Below, one piece after another: positions 39,916 to 56,273 of a DNA stretch of 56,759 nucleotides. The position numbers and the translations under genes were made by a program. The notes beneath the pieces were generated by a model that was not told the DNA's origin, did not search any database, and saw only the letters and a program-made list of their open reading frames with translations. Numbering within the stretch: the stretch's first letter is position 1; each line of letters starts with the position of its first letter. The stretch is from Acidimicrobiia bacterium (GTDB lineage: Bacteria > Actinomycetota > Acidimicrobiia > Acidimicrobiales > AC-14), in assembly GCA_023265025.1 (NCBI GenBank), contig JAHFUP010000027.1, positions 1-56,759 of the forward strand. Reading direction: 5' to 3'.

Positions 39916-41358
39916 TTGATAGGCGACGACCAGCTCACGAGTGCACCGTGGCACAAGCGCTACGTGGCGACGCTCGTGGTTACCGACTCTCTGGCCGTGT
40001 TCGTCGGGACGATGGTGGCCGTCATCCTGCGGTTTTCCTCGCTCGACGCCTCGGTGAGCTCGGGCGCCGGGCGGATTTCCTATCCCGCCGTCGCTCTGCT
40101 GGTCGCCCCGCTCTGGGTGGCCACCCTTGCCTTGTGCGGGGTGTACGACGACCGGAGGCTGGGCCACGGCTCCGAGGAGTACCGGGCCATCCTGAATGCC
40201 GCAGTCCACTTCCTGGCGTGCGTGGCCATCCTCGCCCTGGTGTTCAAGCTCAGCCTGGCCCGGGGCCTGGTGGCCATCACCCTGCCGTTGGCCTCGGTCC
40301 TCAGCGTGGCCGGTCACTATGCCGCCCGCCGGTGGCTGCACGGCCGGCGCGCCGAGGGCGGGTGCATGCGGCGGGTGCTCGTGGTTGGAAGCGAGCGGCA
40401 GGTCGCCGACCTCGTCCGCCACTTCCGCCGGTCTCAGCACGCCGGGCTCGGGGTCGTCGGGGCCTGCGTTCCAGGGTTGCTCGAGAAGATCGATGTCGAC
40501 GGCGAGCCCGTGCCCGTGGTCGGTGGCCCCGACGACGTGATCGATGCGCTCGCGCTGGTCGGCGCCGACACTGTCGCCGTGGCCGACCACGAGACCCTCG
40601 CCAACGGCGCCCTTCGCCGGCTGGGCTGGCAGCTCGAGGGCACCGGCACCGATCTGCTCGTGGCCCCGTCGGTGATCGACGTCGCCGGCCCTCGTATCGC
40701 CATCTACCCGGTCGCCGGCCTGCCGCTGCTGCACGTCGAGGAGCCGACGATGAGCGGGTTCAACCGGCTGATGAAGGAAGCCGTCGATCGGGTCGGAGCC
40801 GGCGTGTCGCTCCTGGTGCTCTCACCGTTCCTTCTCGCCGTCGGTCTCATCGTGCGGGTCACGAGCAAGGGGCCGGCGGTGTTCCGCCAGGTGAGGGTGG
40901 GCCGGGAGGGTGAGCACTTCACCCTCTACAAGTTCCGCACCATGCGGTCGACCGCCGAGGTCGAGCGTGACGCCCTGGCCGGCCAGAACGAGCATGATGG
41001 CCCCCTGTTCAAGATGCGCGATGACCCCCGCCGGACAACGGTCGGCCGCTGGCTCCGCCGCCTCTCCATCGACGAGCTGCCCCAGCTCTGGAACGTGTTC
41101 ACCGGGCGCATGTCCATCGTCGGGCCTCGGCCGCCCCTGCCGAGCGAGGTGGACCGCTACAGCGACGAGGTGCGCCGGCGCCTGCTGGTGAAGCCCGGCC
41201 TCACCGGCCTCTGGCAGGTGAGCGGCCGGTCCGACCTGTCGTGGCCCGAGGCCGTCCGCCTCGACCTGTACTACGTCGAGAACTGGTCGCCGGCGCTCGA
41301 CATGGTCATCGTCGGCAAGACCCTCACGGCGGTCGTACGCGGTAGGGGCGCATACTGA
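39916..41358 (+). CDS. Polyprenyl-phosphate sugar-1-phosphate transferase (WbaP/CpsE-like)
   Basis: The 480-residue protein has four or five N-terminal membrane helices, a CoA-binding-like middle domain (VLVVGSERQVADLVRHFRRS), a further helix (LLVLSPFLLAVGLIVRV) and the C-terminal bacterial sugar-transferase domain. The latter shows GPAVFRQVRVGREGEHFTLY, KFRTMRST, DELPQLWNVFTGRMSIVGPR and KPGLTGLWQVSGRSD. It transfers a sugar phosphate to undecaprenyl phosphate at the inner face of the membrane, the first step of capsule or exopolysaccharide assembly. The TTG start follows GGGGGGGACGG. This is the probable committed step for the glycan locus that follows. Confidence 0.93.
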   Translation: MIGDDQLTSAPWHKRYVATLVVTDSLAVFVGTMVAVILRFSSLDASVSSGAGRISYPAVALLVAPLWVATLALCGVYDDRRLGHGSEEYRAILNAAVHFLACVAILALVFKLSLARGLVAITLPLASVLSVAGHYAARRWLHGRRAEGGCMRRVLVVGSERQVADLVRHFRRSQHAGLGVVGACVPGLLEKIDVDGEPVPVVGGPDDVIDALALVGADTVAVADHETLANGALRRLGWQLEGTGTDLLVAPSVIDVAGPRIAIYPVAGLPLLHVEEPTMSGFNRLMKEAVDRVGAGVSLLVLSPFLLAVGLIVRVTSKGPAVFRQVRVGREGEHFTLYKFRTMRSTAEVERDALAGQNEHDGPLFKMRDDPRRTTVGRWLRRLSIDELPQLWNVFTGRMSIVGPRPPLPSEVDRYSDEVRRRLLVKPGLTGLWQVSGRSDLSWPEAVRLDLYYVENWSPALDMVIVGKTLTAVVRGRGAY

Positions 41359-41472
41359 GCAGACTGTGAGAGATCTGAATTCGACTTCGTCCCAGGTGAC
41401 GACGCCACCTTCCGCCGGAATCTTGTCGGGCGGTCGACGGCCCTGTTCAATGCGAACGGGCGCGTTCGTCTG

Positions 41473-42750
41473 ATGACCAGTTTGTCTTTCCTGAAGGGCG
41501 CTCCCGTGTGTCTCGGCGTTCTCGCCGTCGGCGTCACAGCCGCCAGTCACCCGTCCTGGGCAGTGGCTCTCGCCGTTGTCGTGTTGCTGGGCGCGGTCAG
41601 CGTCCGTGCTCCGGCCGGCGTGTTGGTGGCGGTGCTCCCGGCTGCCTACATCTCGTGGCGGGTTGGCCCCGGCGGCTCAGGTCTGAGCGTTGCCGACGCA
41701 GCACTATTCATGGGCACCCTAGCGTCGGTTCCGTTCGTACCGTGGGCCGAACCGAGGCTTCGCCGAGTGCTCCTGGGCCTGGCCGTCTACGAGGGAACAC
41801 TGGCGCTCGCTGTCGTCTCGCATCCGACCCAACGGGCTATCCTTGAGTGGGGACACCGGATCCTGCTTGTCGGAGGATCTCTGATGGTAGGGACGGCTCT
41901 TCTTCGGCTCGTGACGCTAAGGGGCGTCCTTAAGACGTATCTAGGCGCGTCGGTGGCGGTGGCCATTGCGTCCGTCCTGTATACGCTAACCGATAGTCTC
42001 AGGCCCGCATATCCATTTGGATTCAACAAGAACGCAGCCGGGCTCCTTCTGGCGTTTGCACTCGTCATCACTGTGGTCGCTCCGACCCTGGCGACATTCG
42101 CAACGGGCCTCCTGGGCCCCCTACGAGTTGCGTTGGTCCTCGGCTTGCTCTCCACCCAGTCGCGGGGTGCCATGTTGGCGATCGTGGTGGCCGTCGTGGT
42201 TCCCGAGCTTCGTCGCACAGACTCCCGCCGCGGTATTCCGCTCGTGATTGTAACCTCGGCTATCCTGCTCGCCGGGGTGTTGCTGGTTACGCAGCGAGAG
42301 GCTGAAAAGACGCGTCTCAACCCCGATGGAGCTCAGTATTATGGTATCGGGGCCCGGTCTGGCTCGGACCACGAGGCATTGGATATCTGGGGTCGCGAGC
42401 GACTCCTTGGTGCCGGTCTTCGGTATTTTTATGATCCGATGTTCAGGACGAGCGAACCACACAACGTGGTGATCGTCAGTCTGGCCGAGACAGGAATCAT
42501 TGGCGTCGCAGGGCTTTGCTGGCTGCTCTGGAGCGGCTGGTCTGCCCTGCGGGGTCTTGACGGCCAGCTTGCGACCCTGGCTAGGGCCGTTCTGGCCGTC
42601 CAGGTCCTCGCTGGGATGTTTGACATCTTTTGGGTAGCTGGCCGTGGCTCGTTCGCCTGGGCGTTGATTGGCGGCGCGGTGGGGGCGCGGGCCATACGTC
42701 CAGATGGAGATGAGCTCCCCATGCGGACCACTGCGGTTGACGGCGAATGA
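41473..42750 (+). CDS. O-antigen ligase/polymerase-like membrane protein
   Basis: The 425-residue protein is built of about ten hydrophobic segments with a larger loop near residues 275-335. It contains FGFNKNAAGLLLAFALVI and LGLLSTQSRGAMLAIVVAVV, the arrangement of the Wzy/WaaL superfamily, and SEPHNVVIVSLAETGIIGVA with the characteristic H-N before a late helix. It could polymerise repeat units or attach the glycan to a carrier outside the membrane. Codon and base usage (for example GGATTCAACAAGAACGC, TATTATGGTATC) is less GC-rich than region 1. It is 114 bases downstream of the sugar transferase. Confidence 0.85.
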   Translation: MTSLSFLKGAPVCLGVLAVGVTAASHPSWAVALAVVVLLGAVSVRAPAGVLVAVLPAAYISWRVGPGGSGLSVADAALFMGTLASVPFVPWAEPRLRRVLLGLAVYEGTLALAVVSHPTQRAILEWGHRILLVGGSLMVGTALLRLVTLRGVLKTYLGASVAVAIASVLYTLTDSLRPAYPFGFNKNAAGLLLAFALVITVVAPTLATFATGLLGPLRVALVLGLLSTQSRGAMLAIVVAVVVPELRRTDSRRGIPLVIVTSAILLAGVLLVTQREAEKTRLNPDGAQYYGIGARSGSDHEALDIWGRERLLGAGLRYFYDPMFRTSEPHNVVIVSLAETGIIGVAGLCWLLWSGWSALRGLDGQLATLARAVLAVQVLAGMFDIFWVAGRGSFAWALIGGAVGARAIRPDGDELPMRTTAVDGE

Positions 42751-43358
42751 GCATACGGCCTTCAGGAACCCCCGGGTTGGGAAGCCCACCAGTTGATGCA
42801 AGGGCGTTCGCAGATTGAAGTTCGTGGGCTGCTGCGTTCGTGGGGCGGGGCCGTGACGCCACCTCAGATCCATGTCGCCACAACGAAGGTCGAGGAGCGC
42901 AGCGCACCATTGATGTCATCGGCCCGGCAGACGTCGGCAGTCGAGACCCAACCGTCTCAGGGGTTGTCGCCACCTCCAGGGCTACGACCGGGAGGCCGCG
43001 CCGTGGTCCCTACAACGCTCAATCGAACCGCTTTCCGTCAGGCGGTTGCGGGTAGAACTGCAGGCTCCGCAGCAGCTCCGAGACATCAGATCGGAAGCCG
43101 GTTGTGAGCCCGTGAACTGCACTCCGGTGCCGTCAGTTCAAACGCTGTCGCCTCATGGGCGTAGAGAGCCGTCCAGAGCGCGTCTGCCGGCGTTGAAAAG
43201 CTGCCGACCCTTCTTCCGGGCCCGCCGCACCCGCTCACGCGACCGCCCACGCCGCCGCCGGCGAGCTGGCGCAGACGCAGGCACCTCATCTCGCCACGGT
43301 GTGCGTCTCGGGATCGGGCTCGACGGGGCTGGTCGGCTCGGGTCGGGGAGAACGACGA
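42751..43358. other. Gap without recognisable gene
   Basis: About 600 bases separate the ligase-like gene from the first leftward glycosyltransferase. Short open frames exist on both strands, but none shows family features, a good ribosome-binding site or consistent codon pattern. The stretch may be decayed coding sequence, in line with the pseudogenes nearby. Confidence 0.5.
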
Positions 43359-44396
43359 TCAGGCTCTGCGGGTGCGGCCGGCAACCAGCACGCGGTAAAT
43401 GTCGAGCAGGCGGTCGACGTGCACCTCTAGGTTGAAGTGCTCACGCTGGTGCGCTTGGAGCTGCTTGCCGTAGGACTCCCGCGCCGCGGAGCTGCTCACG
43501 AGAGCATCGAGGTGCTCCGCGCACGCCGCGGCGTCGCCCGGGGCGAAGAGGTAGCGGCGCGTGGCCGAGCCCACTGTCTCCAGGTGGGCGCCGCCCGCCG
43601 CAGCGACGACAGGCACACCGGCGGCCATCGCCTCGACCACGCTGAGACCGAAGGGCTCCGACCCGGCCGTGGCCAGTAGGATCCCGACGCGGGCGAAGAG
43701 GGCGGCGACGTTTTCGACGTGGCCCAGGAACTCCACAGACTGGCCGATTTCGAGGGTCGACGCTAGAGCCCGGAGGCGCGGTTCCTCCGACCCGCGCCCG
43801 GCCACGCGTAGCCGCCATCCCGCCGCCCGCGCGCCGCTCCGAGCCCATGCGCCTAGGGCCAACCGGGTGTCCTTCTCGATTTCGAGGCGCTGGAGGACGA
43901 GCACCTCCTGTCGACGGTGGGCGACCGGAGCGGCCGCCCGGACCGGGACCCCATTGGCCAACACGACAGTCGGCTCGTCGAGGGCAGAGGCGACGTAGGC
44001 GCTGATGGCGAGCTGGCAGTCGAGGAACCAAGGGATCAGGCGACATGCTCCGCGGACGAATCCGGGCCGGCCTCGTACTGCCGCGAAGTGACGGGTGGAG
44101 ACGAATGCGGCGTGGGTGAACGGCCGGACGGGGACGAGACCCCACTCCGCTGCGGTCATGTGGGCATGGATGACGTCGACCGCTCGATGCCTAGCCACCT
44201 GCAGGAGCGCCCCGATGGTGTTGCGGGCGGGGACGAAGTCGACGCCGTCGTCGTCGAGCAGGGGACCCATGATGCTTGGATCACCGCCGACGACGGTGAC
44301 GTCGCAGCCTCGGGCCGCTAGAGCGGGAGCTACGTAGCTTATGTAGCGCTCGACGCCGGCGAACCGGTCGGAGCTGACGACATGGAGAATCCTCAC
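43359..44396 (-). CDS. Glycosyltransferase family 4
   Basis: The 345-residue GT-B enzyme starts RILHVVSSDRFAGVERYISY. It has VIHAHMTAAEWGL in the acceptor domain and the donor-binding end GILLATAGSEPFGLSVVEAM followed by AAGVPVVAAAGGAHLETVG, where the E-x7-E motif is seen. The LQRLEIEKDTRLAL segment replaces the more common R-x-x-x-K-G of GT4. It uses a nucleotide sugar to extend the surface glycan. The GTG start overlaps the stop of the upstream GT2 fragment as GTGA. Confidence 0.9.
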   Translation of the reverse strand: MRILHVVSSDRFAGVERYISYVAPALAARGCDVTVVGGDPSIMGPLLDDDGVDFVPARNTIGALLQVARHRAVDVIHAHMTAAEWGLVPVRPFTHAAFVSTRHFAAVRGRPGFVRGACRLIPWFLDCQLAISAYVASALDEPTVVLANGVPVRAAAPVAHRRQEVLVLQRLEIEKDTRLALGAWARSGARAAGWRLRVAGRGSEEPRLRALASTLEIGQSVEFLGHVENVAALFARVGILLATAGSEPFGLSVVEAMAAGVPVVAAAGGAHLETVGSATRRYLFAPGDAAACAEHLDALVSSSAARESYGKQLQAHQREHFNLEVHVDRLLDIYRVLVAGRTRRA

Positions 44397-45097
44397 CCGC
44401 GGCCATTGAAGGGCACTGCGGGCGGCATGGTGGTGAGCCGGTAGCATGGGCCGCGAGCGTGGAGGGCGGCGAGGACCAGCGTATGTCGCCGGGCGCCGGG
44501 CGGCGGGCGGGCCGACCGCAACCGCGCGGCGACAACGGCTGTGGCCCTGTAGGACTGCCATCCGAGCGCCCCGTGCCACGTGTGCGCATAGGTCTTGGTG
44601 CCGCAGTGGAACAGCGCCTCCCGCAGCACCGGGTCGGAAATAGTGCCGCAACCGGTGCCGGCGAGCTGATGGAGGGCCAGTAGATTGGGGCGGCACGTGA
44701 CCTCCCACCCGGCCCGTCTGGGAGGTCGCGGCCTGCCTTCTTCCTCGGCGTGTAGGCAGAACCGTTTGTCGAATGGCCCAACCTCGGCCCGCAGCAGCAG
44801 GAGGGTGCCGACCCGGAACCCCGCGTCCCGTCGACCGTCCGCCTGCAACCGGCCGAGCCCTACCCGCCGGCCGCAGCCGTCGGGTCCGACCAGCGCCGTC
44901 GTCGCCGTCACCCGGGGCGCTGAGCGCCGGCCGAGAAGATCGTCTCCAAAGCACGACGCGGCCGAGCCGCATTGGACTGCCGGCTCAAAGTCGCGACGGA
45001 CCACTAGGGCGGCGCCGCATTGGCGGTCCTTGCTGCATTGGGGGTAGTACGCCAGCAGCCCGGCGATCGCCAGCCTGGCACTGTTGCTATCATCCAT
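44393..45097 (-). pseudogene. GT2 glycosyltransferase fragment, N-terminal domain lost
   Basis: The C-terminal part matches a rhamnosyltransferase-like GT2: GTLLLLRAEVGPFDKRFCLH, AEEEGRPRPPRRAGWEVTC, LLALHQLAGTG, ALFHCGTKTYAHTWHGALGW. The expected N-terminal nucleotide-binding half (D-D-x-S, D-x-D) is missing; the first 80 residues are not family-like. Cysteines and prolines replace usual residues in the acceptor motif, suggesting decay. The frame is intact and coupled to the next GT4 gene, so a product may still be made. The bases from 45098 to about 45344 show no gene. Confidence 0.6.
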
Positions 45098-45344
45098 GAC
45101 CGGGTAACCCTATTCACCTAGCAGCCTTGACCCGATCAATGCCGACTGAGGCGAGGGGGGCGGCGCTGAGCAGTTGGAACTGCCCTGTGCCGAGCGTCCA
45201 CTGCCCGCCTGTCTACCCGTCGATCGACCAACCGGCCCAACATTCCCCGAGTTCACCGAACGGACGATCGTGCGGAGCGCAACTGAACCGCGTAACTACG
45301 ATGCGTGATCACCACGGTGACTCCTGGCTCTGTACGCACCGGTG

Positions 45345-46188
45345 TTTGCAGCATCGTCCTCAACGCTAATCTAGTCGTTTGCAGCTCGAGTCGGTTGGTC
45401 AACGGAGCCCAGACGACAGGCCGGAAGGTCGTCTATTGCTGTCCACTGAAGGGCTTGTTGTACCACAGCTGGTTCTACGCCAACCGCGGGCTGAGAGGCC
45501 GGTCGTAGGCGCGGACCGGCGGCTGCTCGACGCATGGGACAAGCGCGCCGCGTCCTCGCCGATGTCTACCTGGGCAACTCTCGGATCGTGCAGTACCGGG
45601 TGCGCGACCCCTACGGCATCAGCGCCGAAGTTGTCGAGCCTCATGCCGTCGCGCCGGACGGGCATCAGGAGCCGGTACCGGGGATCGGCGACGGGTTCCT
45701 GGTTGGTGTCTCCCTGCTCCCCTATAGGAATATCGGCGAGGTCATTGAGGCGTTCGTGTCGTTGGGCTCTCCGGCTCGTGATCGTGGGTCCGAGGCCCTC
45801 CGGGGGTCTCCGAAGGGCTGGCGCGCCGGACAACGGAACGTTCGTAGGCAAGAAGAACGACGCGGAGCTGCGCTGGCGGTGCGACCGCGCGCAAGGCCTG
45901 ATCGCCGCGTCGTACGAGGACTTCTGGCTCACGCCGTTGGAGGGTAGCCGCGATGGGGACGCCGTCCGCAATGCTGCGCTGGGGCAGGTTTCTCGACACC
46001 GCTATAGAGGGCGACGTGGGCATCTTCGTCGACGAGCCCAATCCCGCCCTCGTCGCCCGTGCGGTGCGGCGACTGGCGTCCGACCGACCGACCAACGGGG
46101 CGTGGTACGTCAAGCGGCCCGCCTCACCGAACCCGCGTTCATCACCAGAATGTGTAAGGTCGCCGGCGTCGTCACCAATGGCGGCTGA
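45345..46188 (+). pseudogene. GT4 glycosyltransferase (WbaZ-like) with several frameshifts
   Basis: Family pieces alternate between all three plus frames: NANLVVCSSSRLVNGAQTTG then RKVVYC; LLDAWDKRAA; VYLGNSRIVQYRVRDPYGIS then GDGFLVGVSLLPYRNIGEVI; LRLVIVGPRPSGG then AQGLIAASYEDFWLTPLEGS; GTPSAMLRWGRFLDTAIEGD then VGIFVDEPNPALVARAVRRL; and finally EPAFITRMCKVAG. Together they cover a nearly complete GT4 of the mannosyltransferase WbaZ type. At least four frame changes make it clearly dead rather than a single sequencing slip. Confidence 0.8.
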
Positions 46189-46201
46189 GGCCCAGTTGGC
46201 A

Positions 46202-47377
46202 ATGAGGATCGTACTCGTCGCGAGTGCATACGCGCCGGCAATCGGCGGCGTTGAGCAACTCACCAACCGGCTAGCCGCCCACCTGGTCGCGGCGGGCGAC
46301 GAGGTTGAGGTGTGGACCATGCGGCATCCCGCCGACCTGGCCCAGAGTGAGGTTATCGATGGGGTGGTTGTGCGTAGGTTCCCGTTCTACCTTCCGCCCG
46401 CCCAGCCCCGGCCGCTGCTGCGGCTTCCCTACCGGGCCGTGATTGTTCTGCGGGCCATGCGGCGCGCGGCCGCAGAGTTCCGGCCCGACGTCGTGCATGT
46501 CCAGTGCTTCGGCGTGAACGGGGTTTACGCAACGGCACTGGCCCGGCTGGAAGGGCTGCCGCTCGTCATCACGCTCCAAGGCGAGACCCTGATGGACGAC
46601 CACGACATCTACGAGAGGTCGGTTAGCCTGCGGACAGGGCTACGGCTGGCCCTGCGCTCGGCCGCCGTAGTGACCGCATGCTCGCAGTTTGTGCTCGACG
46701 ACACCGTCGCTCGATTCGGGCGCCCCCTCGGGGCGGCCGAGGTCATCTTCAACGGGGTCGACACTGAACCCGATCAGTTGCCTGTCCCTCTCGGCATCGT
46801 TTGGCCGCGGTACGTACTCGGCTTGGGACGTCTGGTCCACAAAAAGGGATTCGACCTCCTCCTCGACGCGTTTGCTGGGCTTCCAGATGACCTCGCCGAG
46901 GTGGCGGTGGTTATTGGAGGCGGCGGCTCGGAGCTAGCGGCTTTGCGGCGGAAGGCGGACGAGCTCGGCCTAGGGGAGCGGGCCATCTTTCCAGGCCCGC
47001 TTTCGCGCTCCCAGGTGGCCGGAACGATGGGCGAGGCCGACGTATTCGTGCTCCCCTCCCGTATCGAGCCGTTTGGCATCGTGACGCTGGAAGCCATGAC
47101 GGCGAGTACCCCGGTGCTCGTATCGAGCATCGGGGGGGCACCGGAAATCGTGCGCCACGGCATCGACGGTCTGACCGTTGACCCGACCGACCGGGCCGCC
47201 TTCAGGGTGGCCCTCACCACGATGCTTCGCGATGGCGGGCTGCGGGAGCGGCTTGGGGAAGCAGGTCGTAGGCGGGCCGCCGCTTTCACGTGGCCCACTC
47301 TCACCGACGACTACCGGCAAATCTACCGGGAGGTGATTTCAGCACGGGTGCGTCGGCCCCGCGACGCCACCAGGTGA
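46202..47377 (+). CDS. Glycosyltransferase family 4
   Basis: The 391-residue enzyme begins MRIVLVASAYAPAIGGVEQL with the glycine loop of GT4. It has VVHVQCFGVNGVYATALARL, the donor segment VLGLGRLVHKKGFDLLLDAF (R-x-x-x-K-G), VVIGGGGSELAALRRKADEL, and DVFVLPSRIEPFGIVTLEAM with the E-x7-E nucleotide-sugar clamp. ATG 46202 is chosen; ATG 46178 is in frame eight codons earlier but inside the pseudogene end. Its stop overlaps the next GT4 start. Donor sugar unknown. Confidence 0.93.
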   Translation: MRIVLVASAYAPAIGGVEQLTNRLAAHLVAAGDEVEVWTMRHPADLAQSEVIDGVVVRRFPFYLPPAQPRPLLRLPYRAVIVLRAMRRAAAEFRPDVVHVQCFGVNGVYATALARLEGLPLVITLQGETLMDDHDIYERSVSLRTGLRLALRSAAVVTACSQFVLDDTVARFGRPLGAAEVIFNGVDTEPDQLPVPLGIVWPRYVLGLGRLVHKKGFDLLLDAFAGLPDDLAEVAVVIGGGGSELAALRRKADELGLGERAIFPGPLSRSQVAGTMGEADVFVLPSRIEPFGIVTLEAMTASTPVLVSSIGGAPEIVRHGIDGLTVDPTDRAAFRVALTTMLRDGGLRERLGEAGRRRAAAFTWPTLTDDYRQIYREVISARVRRPRDATR

Positions 47378-48426
47378 CACACGGCGCGGCAGGATTGGCG
47401 CCCATCGAGGTGCTCGTCGCCGGCATGTCGACGGGCTCCGGCGGCGGGCAGGACGTCTATGAGCGCGACCTGATCGCCGCGCTCTCCCGATCGACGGAGC
47501 TGCGTCTCGGTGCCGATAGAGTCGGCCTGAGCGCGAGGACCATCGCCCGCCGCGCCATGAGTGGTCGGCTACTCCGGTTCTCCCGTGTGCTTCGGCGGCC
47601 CCTCGGCCCATTCACTTGGGACCACCGGGTGGTTCATCGTCTCGACCTCCGTCTGCCTCCCGGTCGGGTCGATATCGTCACCATCCACGACGTTGCCCCC
47701 ATGCTCTTTTCCGATGAAGCGCGCATTCCTGCAACGGTCTGGCAGGAAGCCCGAAGGGCCGACGCGGTGATCACGGCGACACAGTTCGCAGCGGAGGAGA
47801 TCCGCCGTGTGTTGGGGTTGGCCGCGCCGATCGTGATCCCGCACGGCGTCCCTTCCGACGTGCACGACAGTCTCCCCTTGGATACCGCCGGGCTTCGGCA
47901 GCTCGGGATCACCGCCCCGTACGTGCTCCAGGTTGGCGGAGGAACACGGCGGAAGAATCTGCCGCTGCTGCGTGAGGCGTGGCTAGCCTCAGATGCACGG
48001 CGAGACGGAGTGATGCTCGTATCGTGCGGGCCTATGCGGGCGGGGCGACAGTCGCAGCTCGGCGGCGGCGGGTCTGGGGTCTTGATACTGGACGTTCTTC
48101 CTCGGAACGTCGTACTCAGGCTGATGAGGTCCGCCTCGGCTGTTGTGGTCCCGTCGATCTACGAGGGCTTCGGGCTGCCGCTGGTTGAGGCCATGGCGAT
48201 GGGGACGCCGGTCGTGGCCGCTCGCACGCCCAGCGCCGTTGAGGTGTGCGGCGACGCCGCGATCCTCGTCGATCCCGACCCGGACAGCTTGGCCGCTGGG
48301 ATTGATCGGGCCTTGTCGGTCCGCGACACCGTTGCGAGAGAGACGATGAAGGCGCGCAGCCGGCTATTCACTTGGGAGCGGGCTGCGTCATCGCATGCCG
48401 AGATCTATCGAGGCTTTGTCAAATAA
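47374..48426 (+). CDS. Glycosyltransferase family 4
   Basis: The 350-residue enzyme has VDIVTIHDVAPMLFSDEARI (a motif of mannosyl- and galactosyl-type GT4), VITATQFAAEEIRRVLGLAA, YVLQVGGGTRRKNLPLLREA and VVVPSIYEGFGLPLVEAMAM with GTPVVAA. All indicate a full GT-B donor domain. I chose GTG 47374 because the stop of the preceding GT4 (TGA 47375-47377) overlaps it as GTGA, and the extension to 47290 has no homology. It is co-transcribed with the GT4 upstream. Confidence 0.92.
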   Translation: MTHGAAGLAPIEVLVAGMSTGSGGGQDVYERDLIAALSRSTELRLGADRVGLSARTIARRAMSGRLLRFSRVLRRPLGPFTWDHRVVHRLDLRLPPGRVDIVTIHDVAPMLFSDEARIPATVWQEARRADAVITATQFAAEEIRRVLGLAAPIVIPHGVPSDVHDSLPLDTAGLRQLGITAPYVLQVGGGTRRKNLPLLREAWLASDARRDGVMLVSCGPMRAGRQSQLGGGGSGVLILDVLPRNVVLRLMRSASAVVVPSIYEGFGLPLVEAMAMGTPVVAARTPSAVEVCGDAAILVDPDPDSLAAGIDRALSVRDTVARETMKARSRLFTWERAASSHAEIYRGFVK

Positions 48427-48735: not shown

Positions 48736-49878
48736 ATGACTACCCGCCGCCTCGTGCAGGACAAGATGTTGGCGATGAGACGATTGGAGCCGAGCCCGCG
48801 CATCGTCTGGCTCAGCAACGAGACGCCCGACCGAGAGGGCGGGGGCGGCCAGCGCCGCCAGTATTTCCAGATCCGGGCGCTACTGTCTGCAGGCGTTGAT
48901 GTCCGGGTTGCTTCGCTGGTGAGCACGCAGCACCATACGAGTTTGCGGGAGATGGTGCGCGTGGAGCGATTTGGGCCAGCCGACCGGCGGGGCCGGTTTC
49001 ACGATCCGGCGCTCGACCGGTTCCTATCTGCGGAGCGCGCAGACGGCGCTGTCGTCGCACACGTCGAGTCGGTCCCGAACGTGCGCGGCGCCCTTGCCAA
49101 GCACCGTCTCCCGTGGCTGTTGGACTTCCAAAACGTCAATTCGCGCTGGTACCTCGCCCGTGGCAAGCGGCATTCCGCCGTCGCTTGGATGCGGCGCGAA
49201 CGAGCGGCGCTGCGTTGGGCTGCGACGGCTACCGCTTGCTCCGACGAGGAGCGTTGCGCGCTACTAGCCGTGTCGGCGGGGGCGCATGTTGAGGTCGTCG
49301 GAAACGGCATCGCACCCGAGGAGTGGCCTGAAACGGCGCTGCAAGAGCGTCGACGACCGGACATCGCGGTCGCCAGTTCATGGACCCACGAGCCCAATCG
49401 TGACGGCGCCCGATGGCTCGCCCGAGAGGTGTGGCCGACTATCCGTTCAGCGGTCCCGGAGGCACGGCTGCTTCTCGCTGGTCCGGGAGCACCGCCGCGC
49501 CTGGCGCTCGAGACAGCCGGCATCGAGCATCTCGGTCGCGTCGACGACCTTGCCAGCCTGATGGGCAGCGTTCGCGTCAGCGTAGTGCCCATTGTCAAGG
49601 GTATCGGAGCGCGTGTGAAGTTTGGGGAGGCTTTGGCCAGCGGCGCCGCCGTCGTGTCGACCTCGACGGGCGCGGAGGGCTTCGACGCCGCAGGGTGCTT
49701 CGTGACCGCCGACGACCCCACAAGCTTTGCCGGGGCCTGCATCGATTTGCTGCGGGCGCCCGATCGGGCCGCCGCGCTTGGAAGAGCCGGGCGCGAGGTC
49801 GCCTTCGGGCGCTACACTTGGGAGCAGAGATGTGATCCGCTCGTTCAGTGGGTCCGTGAATCCACGCATAGCAGCTGA
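48736..49878 (+). CDS. Glycosyltransferase family 4
   Basis: The 380-residue protein starts IVWLSNETPDREGGGGQRRQ, an N-terminal pattern of GT4 enzymes acting in capsule synthesis. It continues with LLDFQNVNSRWYLARGKRHS, WMRRERAALRWAATATACSD and a C-terminal donor domain of the Glyco_trans_1_4 kind (IAVASSWTHEPNRDGARWLA, LLLAGPGAPPRLALETAGIE, VVPIVKGIGARVKFGEALAS, GAAVVSTSTGAEGF). ATG 48736 is chosen by the frame; codons 11 and 14 are possible starts. FkbM methyltransferase follows by 26 bases. Confidence 0.9.
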   Translation: MTTRRLVQDKMLAMRRLEPSPRIVWLSNETPDREGGGGQRRQYFQIRALLSAGVDVRVASLVSTQHHTSLREMVRVERFGPADRRGRFHDPALDRFLSAERADGAVVAHVESVPNVRGALAKHRLPWLLDFQNVNSRWYLARGKRHSAVAWMRRERAALRWAATATACSDEERCALLAVSAGAHVEVVGNGIAPEEWPETALQERRRPDIAVASSWTHEPNRDGARWLAREVWPTIRSAVPEARLLLAGPGAPPRLALETAGIEHLGRVDDLASLMGSVRVSVVPIVKGIGARVKFGEALASGAAVVSTSTGAEGFDAAGCFVTADDPTSFAGACIDLLRAPDRAAALGRAGREVAFGRYTWEQRCDPLVQWVRESTHSS

Positions 49879-49904: not shown

Positions 49905-50657
49905 ATGTCCTTCAAGTCGCGCATCGCAGATCATCTGACGACGCAACTGCCGTCCGTAAGCCCGGTCATCGCGGGGATTCGCGCAGCTAGGACACCGGCA
50001 TGGCAGGCGCGAAACGACCGCGACGACCTGCACCTTCGCGTCATCCTCGCCGCTACCCTCGGGATGAGCTCTAACGTGATTGATGTGGGCGCTGCGAACG
50101 GAACGGTACTCGACGACGTCGTGCGTTACGCACCGCAGGGTCGGCACGTGGCGTTCGAGCCCCGGAGGGACGCCGCTGCTGCGCTCGCCGGTCGATTCCC
50201 GAATGTCACCGTGCGCCAGACCGCGGCCTCAGACGTGGCGGGCTCGGCGCCGTTCACTCTTGTCCGCAACATCCCCGAGTTATCCGGCATGAAGCCGCGG
50301 GCGTGGCCGCATCACGAGCTGGTGACCGATTACTGCACCGTGACGACCGAAAGGCTCGACGACGTCATCGGTCATCCCGTCCACCTGCTGAAGATCGATG
50401 TCGAGGGAGCGGAGGCGGCATGTCTGCGGGGCGCGAGAAGGCTCTTAGAAGAATTCAGACCGCTCACGATCTTCGAGCATGGCGCCACCACTTCGACCGA
50501 TCCGGCTTCCCCCGACCATGGCGATATCTGGGGCATCCTCGACGAGGCTGGCATGCGCATCTTCAGCATCGATGGAGATGGTCCACTATCTAGCGACATG
50601 TTCTCGGCGCTGAGTTCGTCGGGAAACATCTGGAGCTTCGTTGCGCGGTCTATGTGA
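49905..50657 (+). CDS. FkbM family methyltransferase
   Basis: The 250-residue SAM-dependent enzyme shows NVIDVGAANGTVLDDVVRYA (SAM loop), HVAFEPRRDAAAALAGRFPN and the FkbM signature VHLLKIDVEGAEAACLRGAR with LTIFEHGATTSTDPASPDHG. FkbM enzymes O-methylate sugars or hydroxyls of secondary metabolites and surface glycans. It is the first of three such genes in 2.5 kb. It is convergent with the second one, 18 bases away, so those two cannot share an operon. Confidence 0.88.
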   Translation: MSFKSRIADHLTTQLPSVSPVIAGIRAARTPAWQARNDRDDLHLRVILAATLGMSSNVIDVGAANGTVLDDVVRYAPQGRHVAFEPRRDAAAALAGRFPNVTVRQTAASDVAGSAPFTLVRNIPELSGMKPRAWPHHELVTDYCTVTTERLDDVIGHPVHLLKIDVEGAEAACLRGARRLLEEFRPLTIFEHGATTSTDPASPDHGDIWGILDEAGMRIFSIDGDGPLSSDMFSALSSSGNIWSFVARSM

Positions 50658-50675
50658 AGCGTGCCGAAGCACTTA

Positions 50676-51587
50676 TCATGTTTTCAGCAGCAGCAAGTCG
50701 GTATAGCCGTGGCCGGTGTCGCCGAGTTCGATCACGCGCCGGCATAAGCCGTCGAGTGTCAACTGCTGGCGAATGCGCCCGACCTCGATGATCTCGTCCC
50801 AGTTCGTCACCAGCTCGATGAACCGTTCGAGCTGACCCGCCCGCCGCAGCACATAGGGCCACATTTCGACGACAGTCGGATTATCGGCGAACTTGCCGAA
50901 GCCCTCGATCGCTTGAGCCTCGTGTCCTTGGATGTCCATCCAGACCAACGTTCTCGCAGAATACTCGATCGTGCCTTCAGCCAGCAAGGTATCGAGGCGT
51001 CGTGCTGGGACGGTCGTGATTTCCCTGTTGTCCTCACCTAAGAGACCGCCGGCTGCCATAACGCGGACTCGATGATCGCCAGCGTTGTCCCCTGACAACT
51101 CGAACTCCAACTCCGTGTCGGCGTCGCTCACCGCCATGTGGTGTGTCACTACTCGGTGATCGAGATCGTTGCCCACAAGATTCTGGCGCAACAGGCGGTA
51201 GTTCAACGCGTCGGGTTCGAAGGCGACTCCCGTCGCGTCGGGTATTCTGCCGAGCAAATCTACCGTGACAAAACCGATATTCGCACCGACATCGAAAATC
51301 TGATCTGGCAGGCGATCCCGGCATCGCAACTCCTTGTAGACGGCATCGATATTCTCTCCCTCATAATTTCCCTCAAAGAATAGCCCGCGGCTAATGCCGA
51401 TGTCGCTCGGGTTGACTAGGTAGCGCCTGCCATCCCGTTCTATCTCAAGCGCCGTCGCATAACGCCGGGAGGCGCTCCAGTACAACTCCTTCATGCGCTG
51501 CGCGCGCAACTCAGGAGACCGAATCAGATCGGTTGCCAGACGGGCGGCGAAGATGCCTTTCTTGCGCATCTTCGGCAGTCTAGCCAT
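50676..51587 (-). CDS. FkbM family methyltransferase
   Basis: The 303-residue enzyme has a leading helical region (LRAQRMKELYWSASRRYATA), then RDRLPDQIFDVGANIGFVTV (SAM loop), ATGVAFEPDALNYRLLRQNL, a paired acidic position after the fourth strand and TLVWMDIQGHEAQAIEGFGK, the FkbM signature in the D-I-Q-G-H-E form. It is longer at the N terminus than its two neighbours and looks like a different subgroup. It is divergent from the third FkbM gene with 73 bases between starts. Confidence 0.88.
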   Translation of the reverse strand: MARLPKMRKKGIFAARLATDLIRSPELRAQRMKELYWSASRRYATALEIERDGRRYLVNPSDIGISRGLFFEGNYEGENIDAVYKELRCRDRLPDQIFDVGANIGFVTVDLLGRIPDATGVAFEPDALNYRLLRQNLVGNDLDHRVVTHHMAVSDADTELEFELSGDNAGDHRVRVMAAGGLLGEDNREITTVPARRLDTLLAEGTIEYSARTLVWMDIQGHEAQAIEGFGKFADNPTVVEMWPYVLRRAGQLERFIELVTNWDEIIEVGRIRQQLTLDGLCRRVIELGDTGHGYTDLLLLKT

Positions 51588-51660
51588 CGACGATGGCGAT
51601 GTGGAGCTCCGCCTTGTGCGGCGTGGATCGGCGCTTCGGAGTACGCTGCCTTCTGTGCCA

Positions 51661-52410
51661 ATGAATTTCGCCGATTCGGCACACAGGGTGCTGAGGGTAT
51701 GTGGCAGAGCTGCGCGCAGTTCGCTAAGGGCCGGCGGCTACCAGGTGTCGCGACCGCCGATGGCGCTTCTCCAGCGCCCGGACGCCTGTTTGACGATAGC
51801 GTTTGAGCACCTGGTATCGTTGCTTCTCGCGGAGCAATCGCAACTGTTCATCGTCCAGATCGGCGCCTTCGACGGACAGACCGGCGACCAGATTCACGAT
51901 TACATCAAGAAGTACGGCTGGCGCGGAGTACTTGTGGAGCCCCAGCCGCGGTACTTCGAGCGCCTAGTATCTACCTACGCCGGAGTGGAGGGTCTTCACC
52001 TGCACAACGTCGCCGTCGCCGACAAGCGCGAGTCGCGAACGCTTTACGCAGTGCGGGAGGACCTCACAGGCTTGCCCTCATGGGCGCCACAGACGGCGTC
52101 GTTTGATCGATATCAGCTCGAGCATCACGGCTTCGACGACGACGTGATCGAGCATTACGACGTGCAATGCGTGCCGTTATGCGAATTGCTCGCCGACATT
52201 AATTGCGTGGATATCCTACAAGTTGATGTCGAAGGATTTGACGCGGAGATTATTCGGATGTTTGATTTCGATGTCTTCCGACCGCGAATCGTCCGGTTTG
52301 AGAGCGCTCATCTCAGTCGCTCCGATCATAATTTGGCCATCAAGCGGCTTGTGGGGTATGGGTACCAGGTTGCGGTGACGGGCATGGATACCATCGGTTG
52401 GCATCCCTGA
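51661..52410 (+). CDS. FkbM family methyltransferase
   Basis: The 249-residue protein reads LFIVQIGAFDGQTGDQIHDY (SAM loop; Q-I-G-A-F-D-G), GWRGVLVEPQPRYFERLVST, DILQVDVEGFDAEIIRMFDF and RIVRFESAHLSRSDHNLAIK, the layout of an FkbM subgroup seen in glycan clusters. The frame is open upstream to 51493, but ATG 51661 is preferred because the earlier part is antisense to the start of the neighbouring FkbM gene. AT-richer codons (ATTAATTGC, TTTGATTTCGATG) stand out. Confidence 0.88.
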   Translation: MNFADSAHRVLRVCGRAARSSLRAGGYQVSRPPMALLQRPDACLTIAFEHLVSLLLAEQSQLFIVQIGAFDGQTGDQIHDYIKKYGWRGVLVEPQPRYFERLVSTYAGVEGLHLHNVAVADKRESRTLYAVREDLTGLPSWAPQTASFDRYQLEHHGFDDDVIEHYDVQCVPLCELLADINCVDILQVDVEGFDAEIIRMFDFDVFRPRIVRFESAHLSRSDHNLAIKRLVGYGYQVAVTGMDTIGWHP

Positions 52411-52754
52411 GTTGAGTTATTGTTCGTACCAGATGCGGGAATCCGCCGCGGGCGGAGCCCGAGACCGACGCTCGGATTCGGCCCCCGTCGGGTATTGCGA
52501 TGAGTTGTGTCGTAGTAATAGAGCATTTTGCGCGACGCCGCCGATAGGACTGGGACCCACTCATTGAGGACGATCCGAGCCGATGGCGAGCGCACTGATC
52601 AGTGTCCGGTGAGAAGTGATGCAGTTTTCCAGGCCGGGGGCGCTGCACGGCTTCGTCGCCCGCGGATTTCAGATTGCATGACGGGGCGACGGTTAGCGGC
52701 GGGCTCGGCCCCGTCCTTCCGACTCGACTGGAGCGGAGGTACCCTCAGCGGGTC
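52411..52754. other. Gap without recognisable gene
   Basis: About 340 bases between the third FkbM gene and the exostosin-like gene contain no frame with family features. GGAGG at 52735-52739 lies 15 bases before GTG 52755, rather far for a ribosome-binding site. No strong hairpin or promoter was noticed. Confidence 0.5.
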
Positions 52755-53711
52755 GTGAGAATCGCCGTGGCCACAGTCGGGGACGGCCCTGAGCAGCATG
52801 GCGCACTAGACGTCTTCCTCCGTCTGGCACGCTTGGATGCCGTCGGGGAACATGAGCTGACGCGCGATCCGGAATCGGCTGATGCGCTGCTCGTCGTGAA
52901 TCTCCAACAACTGCCGGATGATCCATACCTCAGGGCGTTGCGACAGAGTCCCCTCGTAGAGGCGCATTTCGACAAGGTCTACGTCTACGATCAGCGCGAC
53001 AGGCCGTTCTTCACGTTCCCGGGGATATATGTATCGGGTGCGGGACGATGGGCGCGACGCCTGCCGCTTGTCGGCGGACCGTATCCCAACCTACCCAACG
53101 CGCCGGAGCTCGCGAATCAAGCGCCCGATCTTTTGTTTTCGTTTCTGGGGGCACGTACCCACCCGGTCCGAGCGGGCATCCTCGCGCTCGAACATCCGCG
53201 CTCAATCGTCGAGGACACTAGCGCGTTGAATTGTTTTCCCTGGGTGAGTGACGAAGACCCCGACGACCGTCTGCGGTCCGCGCGCACCAGATATCGCGCC
53301 GTCGTCGGACGCTCTAAGTTTGTGCTTTGCCCCCGGGGCCACGGCCCATCCTCGTTCCGCCTATACGAGACGCTCTGTGCGGGCAGGGTGCCGGTCGTGA
53401 TCAGCGACGACTGGCTCGCTCCGCCGCGAGTCAACTGGGGCGGTTGCGTGCTGCGGGTGCCCGAGAGAGACGTGCAACGCCTTCCGCAGATCCTCGAAGA
53501 GTATGAGACCCGCTGGCCGATCATGGTCACGGCTGGACAGGCGGCGGTATCGGAGCATTTCAGCAGCACCCGGCTGTGGCACCACATTGCGGCGTCTATC
53601 ACCAACTTGATGCAGGTTCGCCGGCCGCGGACCCCTTGGTGGGCGCAATCGCAGGTCATACGTATTTGGGCCCGCACCATGGTGCCATCGCCGAAAGCCT
53701 GGAATCGTTAG
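52755..53711 (+). CDS. Exostosin-like glycosyltransferase (GT47 type)
   Basis: The product of about 318 residues starts VRIAVATVGDGPEQHGALDV. It has the exostosin-like core: LLFSFLGARTHPVRAGILAL, SKFVLCPRGHGPSSFRLYET, LCAGRVPVVISDDWLAPPRV and LPQILEEYETRWPIMVTAGQ. The F-V-L-C-P-R-G then S-x-R-x-x-E and C-x-P-V-x-x-D spacing is that of bacterial exostosin-domain proteins in polysaccharide clusters. Donor and acceptor are unknown. I chose GTG 52755 over the longer frame (52674), which adds no homology. Confidence 0.82.
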   Translation: MRIAVATVGDGPEQHGALDVFLRLARLDAVGEHELTRDPESADALLVVNLQQLPDDPYLRALRQSPLVEAHFDKVYVYDQRDRPFFTFPGIYVSGAGRWARRLPLVGGPYPNLPNAPELANQAPDLLFSFLGARTHPVRAGILALEHPRSIVEDTSALNCFPWVSDEDPDDRLRSARTRYRAVVGRSKFVLCPRGHGPSSFRLYETLCAGRVPVVISDDWLAPPRVNWGGCVLRVPERDVQRLPQILEEYETRWPIMVTAGQAAVSEHFSSTRLWHHIAASITNLMQVRRPRTPWWAQSQVIRIWARTMVPSPKAWNR

Positions 53712-54040
53712 CCCTCGATGAGGCGCTCCGTCTGGCAGCCTTCGCGGGAACCCCTGGTTGAAGACCTTCCCTTTCGTTCATCCGGCGGTCTTTGACGAGC
53801 ATTTGAAGGACCAGTTGCTCGGCGCACTCCCAGCTCGAAGCGATACGTGACTACCCCTTGGTCAAGCTGACGCTATTGTCTGATGTCGTCAGAAGTCCGG
53901 CCACTTAGGTCAGCCCTTGCGGATAGCTTCGATCCGACGCCCGCGGTCGTCGCCCTGCATCGAACGAGTCCTGCAGCTCGCACGTTCGAGCAAATTGGGG
54001 CCTACTCGCTGCTGCTAACCCAACACCGGGGCAAGTCTGA
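53712..54040. other. Gap, probably decayed coding DNA
   Basis: Short open pieces occur, for example PTPAVVALHRTSPAARTFEQ near 53940, but none is complete or recognised. The stretch leads directly into the methyltransferase relic at 54041, so it may be the broken upstream half of that gene. Confidence 0.4.
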
Positions 54041-54243
54041 GCCGAGTTTGTGCTAGTCGATGACGCCCAGGATTATCTCCATGGTGTAGCCGAGACGCGA
54101 TCGGCACTCTAGAGATCGTGAAGCCGCGTGGGCTGGTGCGTTGCGACGATTTCGACCCGTACTGGCATTGACTGGTAAACGGCATTCTCGACGCAGTGGA
54201 ATCACGGCCCGCGGGTTCCAACTCGGTGATGCTCGGCACGTGA
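54041..54243 (+). pseudogene. Class I methyltransferase relic
   Basis: One frame reads AEFVLVDDAQDYLHGVAETR then SAL and a stop. After a shift, EIVKPRGLVRCDDFDPYWH, another stop, then LVNGILDAVESRPAGSNSVM. This matches the second half of a SAM-dependent methyltransferase of the Methyltransf_24 kind (V-L-V-D-x-x-H-D-Y, then K-P-G-G-L-V, then D-D-F). One frame change and one internal stop show decay. Confidence 0.45.
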
Positions 54244-54315
54244 GGGCAGGTATCCGTCAGTGGGTCGGGCCAAGCACGCAAGGCCCTCTCCCGTCATTGG
54301 CCCTCATACTGAAAC

Positions 54316-55323
54316 TTAGTTGCCTGAGGGCAGCTCCGGCGCCAGGCGTCCGTCTAGGTCGCTACGAGTCGGCATCGCCGTTCGACTAGGAGCGCCTCGG
54401 ACGAACCGCACGCTTGCGGCGGCCCCTCGGGCCAGTTCGCGCACTGCGTCCATCGGGTGGCGGGCTGCGACTGCTTCGCGGGCGAGACGACTCCGAGCGC
54501 TGACCTGGTCTCGCTGTAGTGCACGCCAGCAGTCCCGCACCAGCGTCCGGTGGTGCGGCTGATTCTCGGGAGAGTAGAAAGCGCGTACGCGGACGCCGTG
54601 GGCGATGCGGCCCATGTCAGCGCGAGCTCCCAGGTTCGATTCGTGTCGGCGATACCCGATCAGGACATCGTTGATAAACCGTAGGTCTCCATGCCGAGTC
54701 GCGCGAATCAAGAGATCCCAGTCGCCCTCGAGTGACTCGGCGTCATATCCCTCAATACGCTCATACACCCAGCGTCGCATCAGGAGGAGACCGGGGGGGA
54801 ATAGCACGCTGGTGGTTATGACGGTCTCAAAGCAGGTCGGCTGATCTGTCGGCCATGGGTGCAGACGACCACCCCGGCCCGATTTTCGTGCTCGTCCGAA
54901 TGAGGAAAACTCGCCGGGACGTAATAGCCGTCCAGCTTCGTCGATGAACTCGCCCAGTCCATGGGCCCCGATTGATGCAGGGTGACGCTCGACTTCATCC
55001 ACGAGTCGCTCGAGCGCCGTCTCCTCCCACACATCGTCGGCATCCATGATAGTCACCAGACTGATGCCAGTGTCGAGTTGCGAAAGGCCACAATTTCTAG
55101 CGTGGCAGAGCCCCGAATGGTCAATCGAGAGGACGAGAATGCGGGTATCATTGAGTGCGAACTGATCGGCAACCTCTCTGGTGCCATCAACGGACCCGTC
55201 GTCGATGACCACACACACCCACGACCGGTATGACTGACGAGCAATAGACCGGAGCGTGTCGGCAAGGAATTCTCCAGCATTGTGGGCAGCAATCACAATA
55301 CCGACTACCGGCATGATAGTCAT
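54316..55323 (-). CDS. Glycosyltransferase family 2
   Basis: The 335-residue GT-A enzyme has VGIVIAAHNAGEFLADTLRS, VVIDDGSVDGTREVADQFAL, GLCHARNCGLSQLDTGISLV, the metal-binding TIMDADDVWEETALERLVDE and the acceptor part ESLEGDWDLLIRATRHGDLR (E-x-D-W-D-L). No membrane segment is seen, so it works at the cytoplasmic side on the growing glycan. Its start is coupled to the preceding gene on the same strand by a four-base overlap. Confidence 0.92.
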   Translation of the reverse strand: MTIMPVVGIVIAAHNAGEFLADTLRSIARQSYRSWVCVVIDDGSVDGTREVADQFALNDTRILVLSIDHSGLCHARNCGLSQLDTGISLVTIMDADDVWEETALERLVDEVERHPASIGAHGLGEFIDEAGRLLRPGEFSSFGRARKSGRGGRLHPWPTDQPTCFETVITTSVLFPPGLLLMRRWVYERIEGYDAESLEGDWDLLIRATRHGDLRFINDVLIGYRRHESNLGARADMGRIAHGVRVRAFYSPENQPHHRTLVRDCWRALQRDQVSARSRLAREAVAARHPMDAVRELARGAAASVRFVRGAPSRTAMPTRSDLDGRLAPELPSGN

Positions 55324-56273
55324 ACCTCACCGTCTACAGTAGGTGCTGCGAGTCGGGTACGAATATGCAACGCCAACTCAGGGTGTCGGTCGAACTGATG
55401 CACTACTGCCGGGAGTGAACCATCCTGGTTAAGGATTCGCCCGTCGTCGTCAACGTCATAGCCCGTCATCCCCCCCATCGTGAGCACTCGGCCGACGCCA
55501 TTGCGTTCAATGGTCACCGATGACATCCGGCCCGAATGCACGAGCAAGTTGTGAACCCCTTGGTCGTGGCTCCCGAGCGGTCGTCGTCGCCATGTAACGC
55601 AGGCCGACATCTCACGCAGGTAGTGCATCATTGCCTCCTGTGTTCCTAGAACCGTGCCCGAGCACGACGGAACGCCTAGTGCCATTTCAGCGAAACGCAC
55701 CGGACCGGCAAGGTTTCGCACCCAACGGCCGTTGAAGGGGTCATTCGCAAAACGGTGTGACGGATCCTCGAGGACGACCTCTAGCCCATCGAGTCGACGC
55801 TCGAATGGGTCTCCTTGGAAAAAGACGTCGCGCAGGTCGCTGATCATGACCTTATCAGCGTCCGGTGCCAGCTCTCGGATGAAGTCGTAATAGATGCCGT
55901 AGCGGAGGGCCTGAAGGCCCTCTATATGGAACTCGAGCGCCTCCCATCGCGCCTGCGATGTCCGTTCGCGACCGATTCGGCATGCAAGCATGAAGAGGGG
56001 TGTGTAGTAGCGTCGAAAGCCCCGAGTCGAGCGTGCCTTCTTTAGAAGCCAGAGGAGCTCTCGATTCGGTGTTCCGTACCGGTCGTCGACCACCATCACC
56101 AGATCGGCGAGCGCAGATAGCACACTCAAGTCCCGCTCGTCATACTGGGCGAGGACGAGACCCAGCCGGCCGATGTATCCGGTCGCACGAAGCGACCGAG
56201 CGAACGGCTCGATGAACGTGGGGTCGAGCCGAGCTGCGAATCCGAGGACAAGTGACTTCTCCGTGGACGCCAT
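55320..56273 (-). CDS. Possible nucleotide-sugar transferase of the glycan locus
   Basis: The 317-residue protein is not firmly recognised. It begins SLVLGFAARLDPTFIEPFAR. It has DKVMISDLRDVFFQGDPFER, a D-x-R-D motif resembling the metal-binding site of GT-A enzymes, and SHDQGVHNLLVHSGRM near residue 245, as in several nucleotide-diphospho-sugar transferase families. It ends with LPAVVHQFDRHPELALHIRT. Being coupled to a GT2 gene by overlap supports a role in glycan synthesis. A glycosyltransferase is the best guess; exact family unknown. Confidence 0.6.
   Translation of the reverse strand: MASTEKSLVLGFAARLDPTFIEPFARSLRATGYIGRLGLVLAQYDERDLSVLSALADLVMVVDDRYGTPNRELLWLLKKARSTRGFRRYYTPLFMLACRIGRERTSQARWEALEFHIEGLQALRYGIYYDFIRELAPDADKVMISDLRDVFFQGDPFERRLDGLEVVLEDPSHRFANDPFNGRWVRNLAGPVRFAEMALGVPSCSGTVLGTQEAMMHYLREMSACVTWRRRPLGSHDQGVHNLLVHSGRMSSVTIERNGVGRVLTMGGMTGYDVDDDGRILNQDGSLPAVVHQFDRHPELALHIRTRLAAPTVDGEV

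Follow-up and report, generated by a model that had tools for sequence, protein, structure and literature searches.

The window analysed here is the full length of contig C121 (56759 bp), one of the 185 contigs that make up a 5.45-Mb draft genome. Its 3' part carries a surface-glycan locus, and among the genes of this locus is an orphan, called P0001 below, which had been flagged as a possible new transferase in an earlier reading of the letters alone (the sequence-only reading). All gene classes named in that reading were recovered at their positions with Pfam and NCBIfam. As the window is the whole contig, the locus is truncated on its 3' side. The genes are given below with strand, family match (E, expectation value) and, for intact glycan genes, the guanine plus cytosine (GC) content at third codon positions (GC3). 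GT stands for glycosyltransferase family and ORF for open reading frame.

28257–29498, plus: cinA (Pfam CinA), last of the conserved chromosomal genes, after which synteny is lost
37435–39336, plus: DUF4012 protein, which may be part of the locus at its upstream end (PF13196, E 3.2e-32; paralogue at C38 48% identical); GC3 0.879
39916–41358, plus: priming polyprenyl-phosphate sugar-1-phosphate transferase, WbaP/EPS type (PF02397, Bac_transf, E 9.9e-64; TIGR03025 above cut-off); GC3 0.909
41473–42750, plus: WzyC, a Wzy_C membrane protein, polymerase or ligase (PF04932, E 2.9e-8, 34.1 bits against a cut-off of 31.7); GC3 0.690
43359–44402, minus: GT4a (PF00534, E 5.9e-29; the ORF reaches 44972, start probably near 44402); GC3 0.825
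44444–44863, minus: GT2 relic, C-terminal half only (38% identical to residues 140–275 of the GT2 at 7219–8067 of locus L062, E 1e-20)
45558–46078, plus: GT4 relic in three frames (38, 53 and 66% identical to a gene of genome G004 in locus L015, joint E 1e-33)
46202–47377, plus: GT4b (PF00534, E 2.7e-42; the ORF begins at 45953, start placed by prediction); GC3 0.785
47290–48426, plus: GT4c (PF00534, E 7.4e-21); GC3 0.771
48736–49878, plus: GT4d (PF13692, E 5.3e-20); GC3 0.753
49905–50657, plus: FkbM methyltransferase 1 (PF05050, E 2e-20, 74.1 bits); GC3 0.745
50676–51587, minus: FkbM methyltransferase 2 (PF05050, E 9.6e-13, 49.0 bits); GC3 0.714
51493–52410, plus: FkbM methyltransferase 3 (PF05050, E 7.4e-17, 62.4 bits; true start probably near 51658); GC3 0.690
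52674–53711, plus: exostosin-like GT47 (PF03016, Exostosin_GT47, E 7.7e-17, C-terminal part only; 43% identical to a neighbour in locus L050); GC3 0.725
54316–55323, minus: GT2 (PF00535, E 2.1e-25); GC3 0.640
55320–56273, minus: P0001, GtrOC6-like, predicted GT-A glycosyltransferase (no Pfam or NCBIfam match; assigned from relatives and fold model); GC3 0.664

Two of the ORFs are over-long, the GT4 domain starting at residue 206 of the frame 43359–44972 and at residue 97 of the frame 45953–47377. The relics that had been suspected are real: one is the truncated GT2 and the other the GT4 broken across three frames, whose match in G004 adjoins a priming transferase. A polyprenyl-phosphate priming enzyme and a Wzy/WaaL-type protein are both present, as in Wzx/Wzy-like loci; the latter may be a polymerase or a ligase.

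The locus was compared with 108 loci, seven that overlap the window contig having been set aside. Relatives of seven window genes, together with an undamaged version of the gene that survives as the GT2 relic, were found in a single locus (L062/L054) of the Actinomycetota metagenome-assembled genome palsa_456 (G710, PMOB01000033.1), which belongs to a different actinobacterial class from the source genome. This locus gave the best match for GT4a (44% identity, 186 bits against 90 for the best match elsewhere), GT4c (44%, 191 against 84 bits), GT2 (45%, 249 against 96 bits), P0001 (about 48–49%, 270 against 105 bits), GT47 (41%, 198 against 162 bits) and WzyC (31%, 75.5 bits, no match elsewhere). 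It was not the best match for the priming gene, GT4b, GT4d, FkbM2 or FkbM3, and for FkbM1 the matches were weak in both groups (38.5 bits in the palsa_456 locus and 40.4 bits elsewhere). As a control, GT2 was also compared with plasmid records; of the 422 that matched, the first one listed was 28.5% identical, against 45% for L062. The order in L062 is priming gene (WbaP type), GT4a, WzyC, GT2, GT47, P0001-like gene and GT4c. Compared with the window, the palsa_456 locus is compact, with the last four genes closely packed and in one direction, and has a GC content of 0.69–0.72; it holds a sulfotransferase–GT4 fusion and a ParA/CbiA-type ATPase, taken for a Wzc-like kinase, and no FkbM gene was present among the 10 ORFs scanned. 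The sequence-only reading had proposed a patchwork, and uneven composition and relics are indeed present; because seven genes and one relic match a single locus of another class, the locus is not simply a patchwork. The diversifying exchange proposed in the same reading is not supported by the comparisons made, which were with other species. In our reading the shared genes may be an old cassette with exchanged decoration, FkbM genes in the window and the sulfotransferase fused to a GT4 in L062. A cassette common to two classes suggests, as judged from these two loci, that backbone and decoration genes are exchanged separately.

Gene order was then compared at the cinA end of the locus. Up to position 29498 the window carries ftsK, a UPF0004/radical SAM gene, a CDP-alcohol phosphatidyltransferase gene and cinA. 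All 21 genomes searched gave a cinA match, though a weak one in G013 and a partial one in both G009 and G019, and the neighbourhood was inspected in ten of them (G001 and nine others, ten further relatives with a cinA match being left aside). In eight of the ten (G001, G004, G005, G006, G012, G014, G016 and G018) recA begins 0.7–3.4 kb past cinA, and the contigs of G002 and G003 break off 0.5 and 3.1 kb past cinA. No recA-like gene was detected in the 27 kb downstream of cinA in the window, and the recA of the source genome lies on another contig (C49:15282–17156). In G001, which is of the same genus, the two genes preceding cinA are 87–88% and cinA itself 83% identical to those of the window; past cinA, DUF4012 is the sole match (47%). 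Since the cinA–recA synteny is lost, the region after 29498 has been inserted or moved, and on the sequence evidence the glycan locus is one inserted or relocated next to cinA. The locus had been described as acquired from 39916 to 56273; its foreign or relocated nature stands, the start does not, as the non-syntenic stretch begins directly after cinA (29498), 10 kb earlier. Uniform composition and full synteny were looked for and not seen, the comparison being with other species only. The interruption of an otherwise conserved gene order is a trait of genomic islands; there is no tRNA gene in the window, no long terminal repeat within 29400–56759 and no integrase among the scanned ORFs, and the distal boundary is beyond the contig. 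Between cinA and the glycan genes, a type II secretion ATPase (T2SSE/PilB type) is split over two overlapping minus-strand ORFs, with MshEN and the N-terminal part at 35417–36475 and the C-terminal part at 34909–35706; the stretch 34909–36475 thus holds either a broken gene or an assembly error.

The lower GC content noted in the sequence-only reading proved to be real but gradual when GC and GC3 were followed along the window. In 2-kb steps, GC was 0.68–0.74 over the first 30 kb, 0.66–0.68 at 31–36 kb, before the locus, and 0.60–0.70 from 41 kb onwards. Twenty genes hand-picked from the ORFs of the first 29.5 kb had a GC3 of 0.943 (standard deviation 0.032, minimum 0.834); 11 of the 12 glycan genes had values of 0.64–0.83, the exception being the priming gene. 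GC3 was measured for nine of the 11 FkbM matches of the source genome, those at C45 and C18 being left aside. Five segments at C10, C107 and C163 gave 0.938–0.976, so that low GC3 is not general to glycan genes in this genome. A second low-GC glycan region, with a flippase, Wzy_C, GT4, asparagine synthase and FkbM, lies at a contig end (C38:98001–110857, L116). This region, which has a flippase, could belong with the window locus; no overlap of the ends was found. A junction of the window end with another fetched locus was likewise sought and rejected, there being no shared 25-mers and no BLAST match.

P0001 is rare in the genomes sampled. No relative was detected in 40 related genomes or in the other 394 sampled genomes of its class. 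A phylum sample of 396 genomes returned its own genome, palsa_456 and one spurious match, and a profile search in the class of palsa_456 returned that genome only (1 of 399). The samples of 41, 395, 396 and 399 genomes overlap, and the first three include P0001's own genome. A match in G700 was rejected as a relative, since a long ORF occupies the opposite strand and the matching stretch contains a stop. In annotated plasmid records P0001 matched three Acinetobacter baumannii entries, the encoded protein being homologous over 93% of P0001 with 25.6–26.5% identity (best E 1e-22). In CP040041.1 the match lies between a branched-chain amino acid transaminase gene and aspS, directly after a family 25 glycosyltransferase, and because this order agrees with the gene lists in the available text of two papers (PMC10327509, PMC4172580) the gene was identified as gtrOC6 of the OCL1 outer-core locus. 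A profile made without the Acinetobacter sequence found GtrOC6 at E 1.5e-48, the viral members of that profile having been recruited by an alignment that contained the Acinetobacter sequence. In CP040041.1 itself, gtrOC6 (L065:14998–15922) is split across two frames and has no annotated coding sequence.

In the accessible parts of the literature GtrOC6 is listed as a hypothetical protein without family, and is called a transferase because seven are required for the known structure (PMC10327509, PMC4172580); preliminary experimental data in support of this are mentioned in the 2014 paper, as far as its available text goes (PMC4172580). Insertion of ISAba23 in gtrOC6 led to a slightly shorter lipooligosaccharide (PMC4110982). 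No fold or family is assigned to GtrOC6 in the descriptions found in PMC4110982 and in the available text of PMC10327509 and PMC4172580. Like P0001, it is encoded among glycosyltransferase genes and is without a Pfam family. The setting differs, OCL1 being a locus for the outer core of a Gram-negative lipooligosaccharide, and the neighbours of gtrOC6 are a GT25 gene and, going by the published table, a Stealth-type gene rather than GT47 and GT2. At 26% identity between P0001 and GtrOC6 the sugar or the linkage may differ.

Eight residues are invariant in the alignment of the P0001 family: D146, R148, D149, Q153, N181, C204, G206 and G210. A scan of genomic contigs with two peptide patterns retrieved only palsa_456 and a Synergistales fragment; as the Acinetobacter sequences were missed, the family is probably wider than the scans show. 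Two viral scans (A3 and A4) gave 10 and 13 loci on 13 distinct contigs, with relatives 28–33% identical; the first viral scan (A1) and the INPHARED phage records gave none. A motif pattern that matched 8 viral stretches was discarded, none of them containing a P0001 relative by profile. The two phage contigs examined encode a DNA ligase, an endonuclease and an endolysin (L092) and PhoH and an exonuclease (L114), and in both the P0001 relative stands directly before a GH19-type gene and three genes after a methyltransferase. The latter is a C-methyltransferase, and a nucleotide-sugar epimerase-like gene lies nearby, which could represent a phage-borne sugar-modifying set.

At the level of families, neither P0001 nor its L062 relative nor GtrOC6 matched Pfam at E ≤10; P0001 had no NCBIfam or PHROG match either, and its sequence profiles found nothing relevant in the PDB. 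A structural model was built from twelve sequences (predicted local distance difference test score, pLDDT, 65.6; predicted template modelling score, pTM, 0.69). Foldseek returned 28 PDB matches at E ≤0.001, of which glycogenin (GT8) was the first (E 9.2e-5). With VIA-align, the matches listed include alpha-1,3-galactosyltransferase, the ABO enzymes and BoGT6a (all GT6) at Z 13.8–12.8, the top row covering 172 residues at a root-mean-square deviation of 3.1 Å (Z 13.8). A first model, from 3 sequences (pLDDT 55), had no Foldseek match at E ≤0.001 and was not relied on. In the model, the invariant D146-x-R148-D149 is placed where the fourth strand ends, and the near-invariant Q238 belongs to an H-D-Q stretch that resembles what we take to be the catalytic region of GT6. 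GT8 enzymes are retaining. According to the available text of PMC3961637, GT6 enzymes are retaining as well and carry a DxD motif at the junction of two subdomains (DxD in mammalian enzymes, NxN in BoGT6a). The predicted GT-A fold and an acidic motif ending the fourth strand are what P0001 would share with GT6 and GT8; D-x-R-D, in place of DxD or NxN, sets it apart. Since both structural neighbours are retaining, P0001 is probably retaining too. From the model, P0001 probably represents an unclassified glycosyltransferase family. On balance, and with some hesitation, we favour the wider proposal that P0001, GtrOC6, the Synergistales fragment and the phage proteins form one unclassified retaining GT-A family with D-x-R-D replacing DxD, which goes with a GT2–GT47 module in two Actinomycetota genomes and may act there as a late capping or side-branch transferase. 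If so, the sixth transferase for the OCL1 outer core, so far unassigned, would acquire a fold and a mechanism; the phage relatives and those from two Actinomycetota genomes, together with the invariant residues and the GT-A prediction, would make donor and linkage of GtrOC6 testable. The locus as such is ordinary, variable glycan islands being well known, and the orphan enzyme is its useful part.

Overall, we are fairly confident that the window holds an incomplete surface-glycan locus next to cinA, with an L062-like core, added genes and relics, in which P0001 is a GT-A glycosyltransferase and belongs, together with GtrOC6, to an uncatalogued family. A number of observations weigh against this interpretation. 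As to the cassette, it was seen in one other genome only, and its gene order is rearranged relative to L062; the priming gene is 52% identical to that of G014, of the same order and its best relative, and 33% to that of the palsa_456 locus, so that it need not have arrived with the cassette. Five further loci that contain a GT47 relative (L083, L084, L108, L109 and L111) showed none of P0001, and the Acinetobacter locus L064 has no window gene other than the P0001 relative (both at E ≤1e-6). The matches of GT4a and GT4c were judged among fetched loci only, those of GT2 also against plasmids. With a GC3 of 0.85–0.91 in its genes, L062 is not a recent donor of the window copy, and the FkbM gene at C38 has a GC3 of 0.745, so that a low value is not peculiar to the window locus. 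No Wzx flippase was found among the scanned window ORFs, the contig ending inside the locus. As to P0001, the model is of moderate quality, poor at residues 102–115 and in much of 257–317, with Foldseek TM-scores of 0.24–0.43 by query length among the 50 rows listed, and sequence profiles reached neither a GT6 nor a GT8 chain of the PDB at E ≤10.

Several of these points, namely the rearranged order and orientation, the priming gene nearest to another lineage (G014) and the GT47 loci without P0001, would also fit a plain patchwork, in which the genes arrived separately and the likeness to L062 arises because common glycan genes collect in any locus of this kind. The uneven GC3 (0.64 to 0.91), the nearly unrelated FkbM genes and the relics agree with it as well. 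Two of the shared genes are, however, rare in the samples. P0001 occurs in 1 of 41, 1 of 395 and 3 of 396 genomes, its own included and one of the three being spurious, and by family profile in 1 of 399; GT47 matches are found in 3 of 99 and 4 of 299 genomes, several of them short and partial. Moreover, these two rare genes are adjacent in L062, along with the closest GT2 and GT4c. We therefore consider separate arrival a possible but unlikely origin.

It is still less likely that the contig is an assembly chimera, with the chromosomal cinA end joined to a glycan contig of another organism, the apparent acquisition then being an artefact. The draft state of the genome in 185 contigs, the shift in composition along the contig and the split T2SS ATPase, of a kind that assembly errors can cause, would be compatible with it; but the change is gradual, DUF4012 and the priming gene have a near-native GC3, DUF4012 has a paralogue of 48% identity in the source genome, and this genome has another low-GC glycan region at the C38 end. 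Just as improbable is a P0001 that is some other enzyme with a nucleotide-binding fold, such as a sugar nucleotidyl- or phosphotransferase: the lack of any family or PDB sequence match, the moderate model confidence and the ranking of cytidylyltransferases and other folds by the weaker first model leave some room for it, but the second model best matches glycogenin (GT8) and GT6, the gene sits in glycan loci of both Actinomycetota and Acinetobacter, the gtrOC6 insertion described in the literature alters the lipooligosaccharide (PMC4110982), and GtrOC6 (E 2e-7) and the L098 phage protein (3.9e-5) are matched by a phage family with a glycosyltransferase annotation, whereas P0001 and the two other phage proteins tested gave no match to it.

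For a glycan locus with an L062-like core, we infer the enzymatic steps, with their sugars and linkages, from the gene families. The WbaP-type enzyme would prime polyprenyl phosphate with a sugar-1-phosphate, to which the GT4, GT2 and GT47-like enzymes and P0001 would add sugars singly; the FkbM enzymes would O-methylate particular hydroxyls. A flippase not seen here would export the chain, and the Wzy_C protein would polymerise it or pass it to an acceptor. Without a close counterpart in L062, the FkbM genes and two of the GT4 genes look like additions, and two genes have decayed.

The three FkbM genes had been described as lying in three orientations, which is impossible; their order is plus, minus, plus over 49905–52410. 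All three proteins exceed the curated PF05050 cut-off of 22.7 bits, and by eye they keep glycine-rich and acidic motifs that we assume to be those of the family. They are distinct, as had been stated, and nearly unrelated, the best pairwise alignment being 39% over 33 residues (E 0.001); with almost no pairwise similarity, recent duplication of one FkbM gene is excluded. At least one FkbM match was present in 32 of 41 genomes, with a maximum of 11 in the source genome. The triplet is not unique, nor is any rarity of it supported: G008, of the same family, also carries three within 2.5 kb (G008:C491, 2466–4965), and three are found in 5.9 kb of G000:C10. Nor does a heavily methylated glycan, as the sequence-only reading had it, follow from three methyltransferase genes. 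In the protein O-glycan cluster of Tannerella forsythia, according to the available text of PMC6120980, three methyltransferases give rise to two methyl groups, two of the enzymes being needed for the same one. That cluster resembles the window in having three methyltransferase genes, two of them without significant similarity; it differs in being experimentally defined and in yielding two methyl groups only, and the term FkbM is absent from the main text in its available form (PMC6120980).

Some further features were noted around cinA and recA. Positions 31755–31813 of the window repeat, at 98% identity, 59 bp of an AAA_14/DUF4143 gene (33483–33541); the copy is located upstream of that gene, between PIN and Uma2 genes. 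On the recA contig of the source genome (C49:1–20000; L080 and L081), a glycan locus with DUF4012, a Wzc-like ATPase, GT2, GT4 and Wzy_C lies beside recA; on the other side of recA is a group of caspase-like, ankyrin and LigT genes, with a HipA gene further out. The recA of G001 (L059:7929–10082) contains a LAGLIDADG domain, as in an intein, and that of the source genome is a frame of 740 codons with the RecA domain in two parts, which suggests an intein there too.

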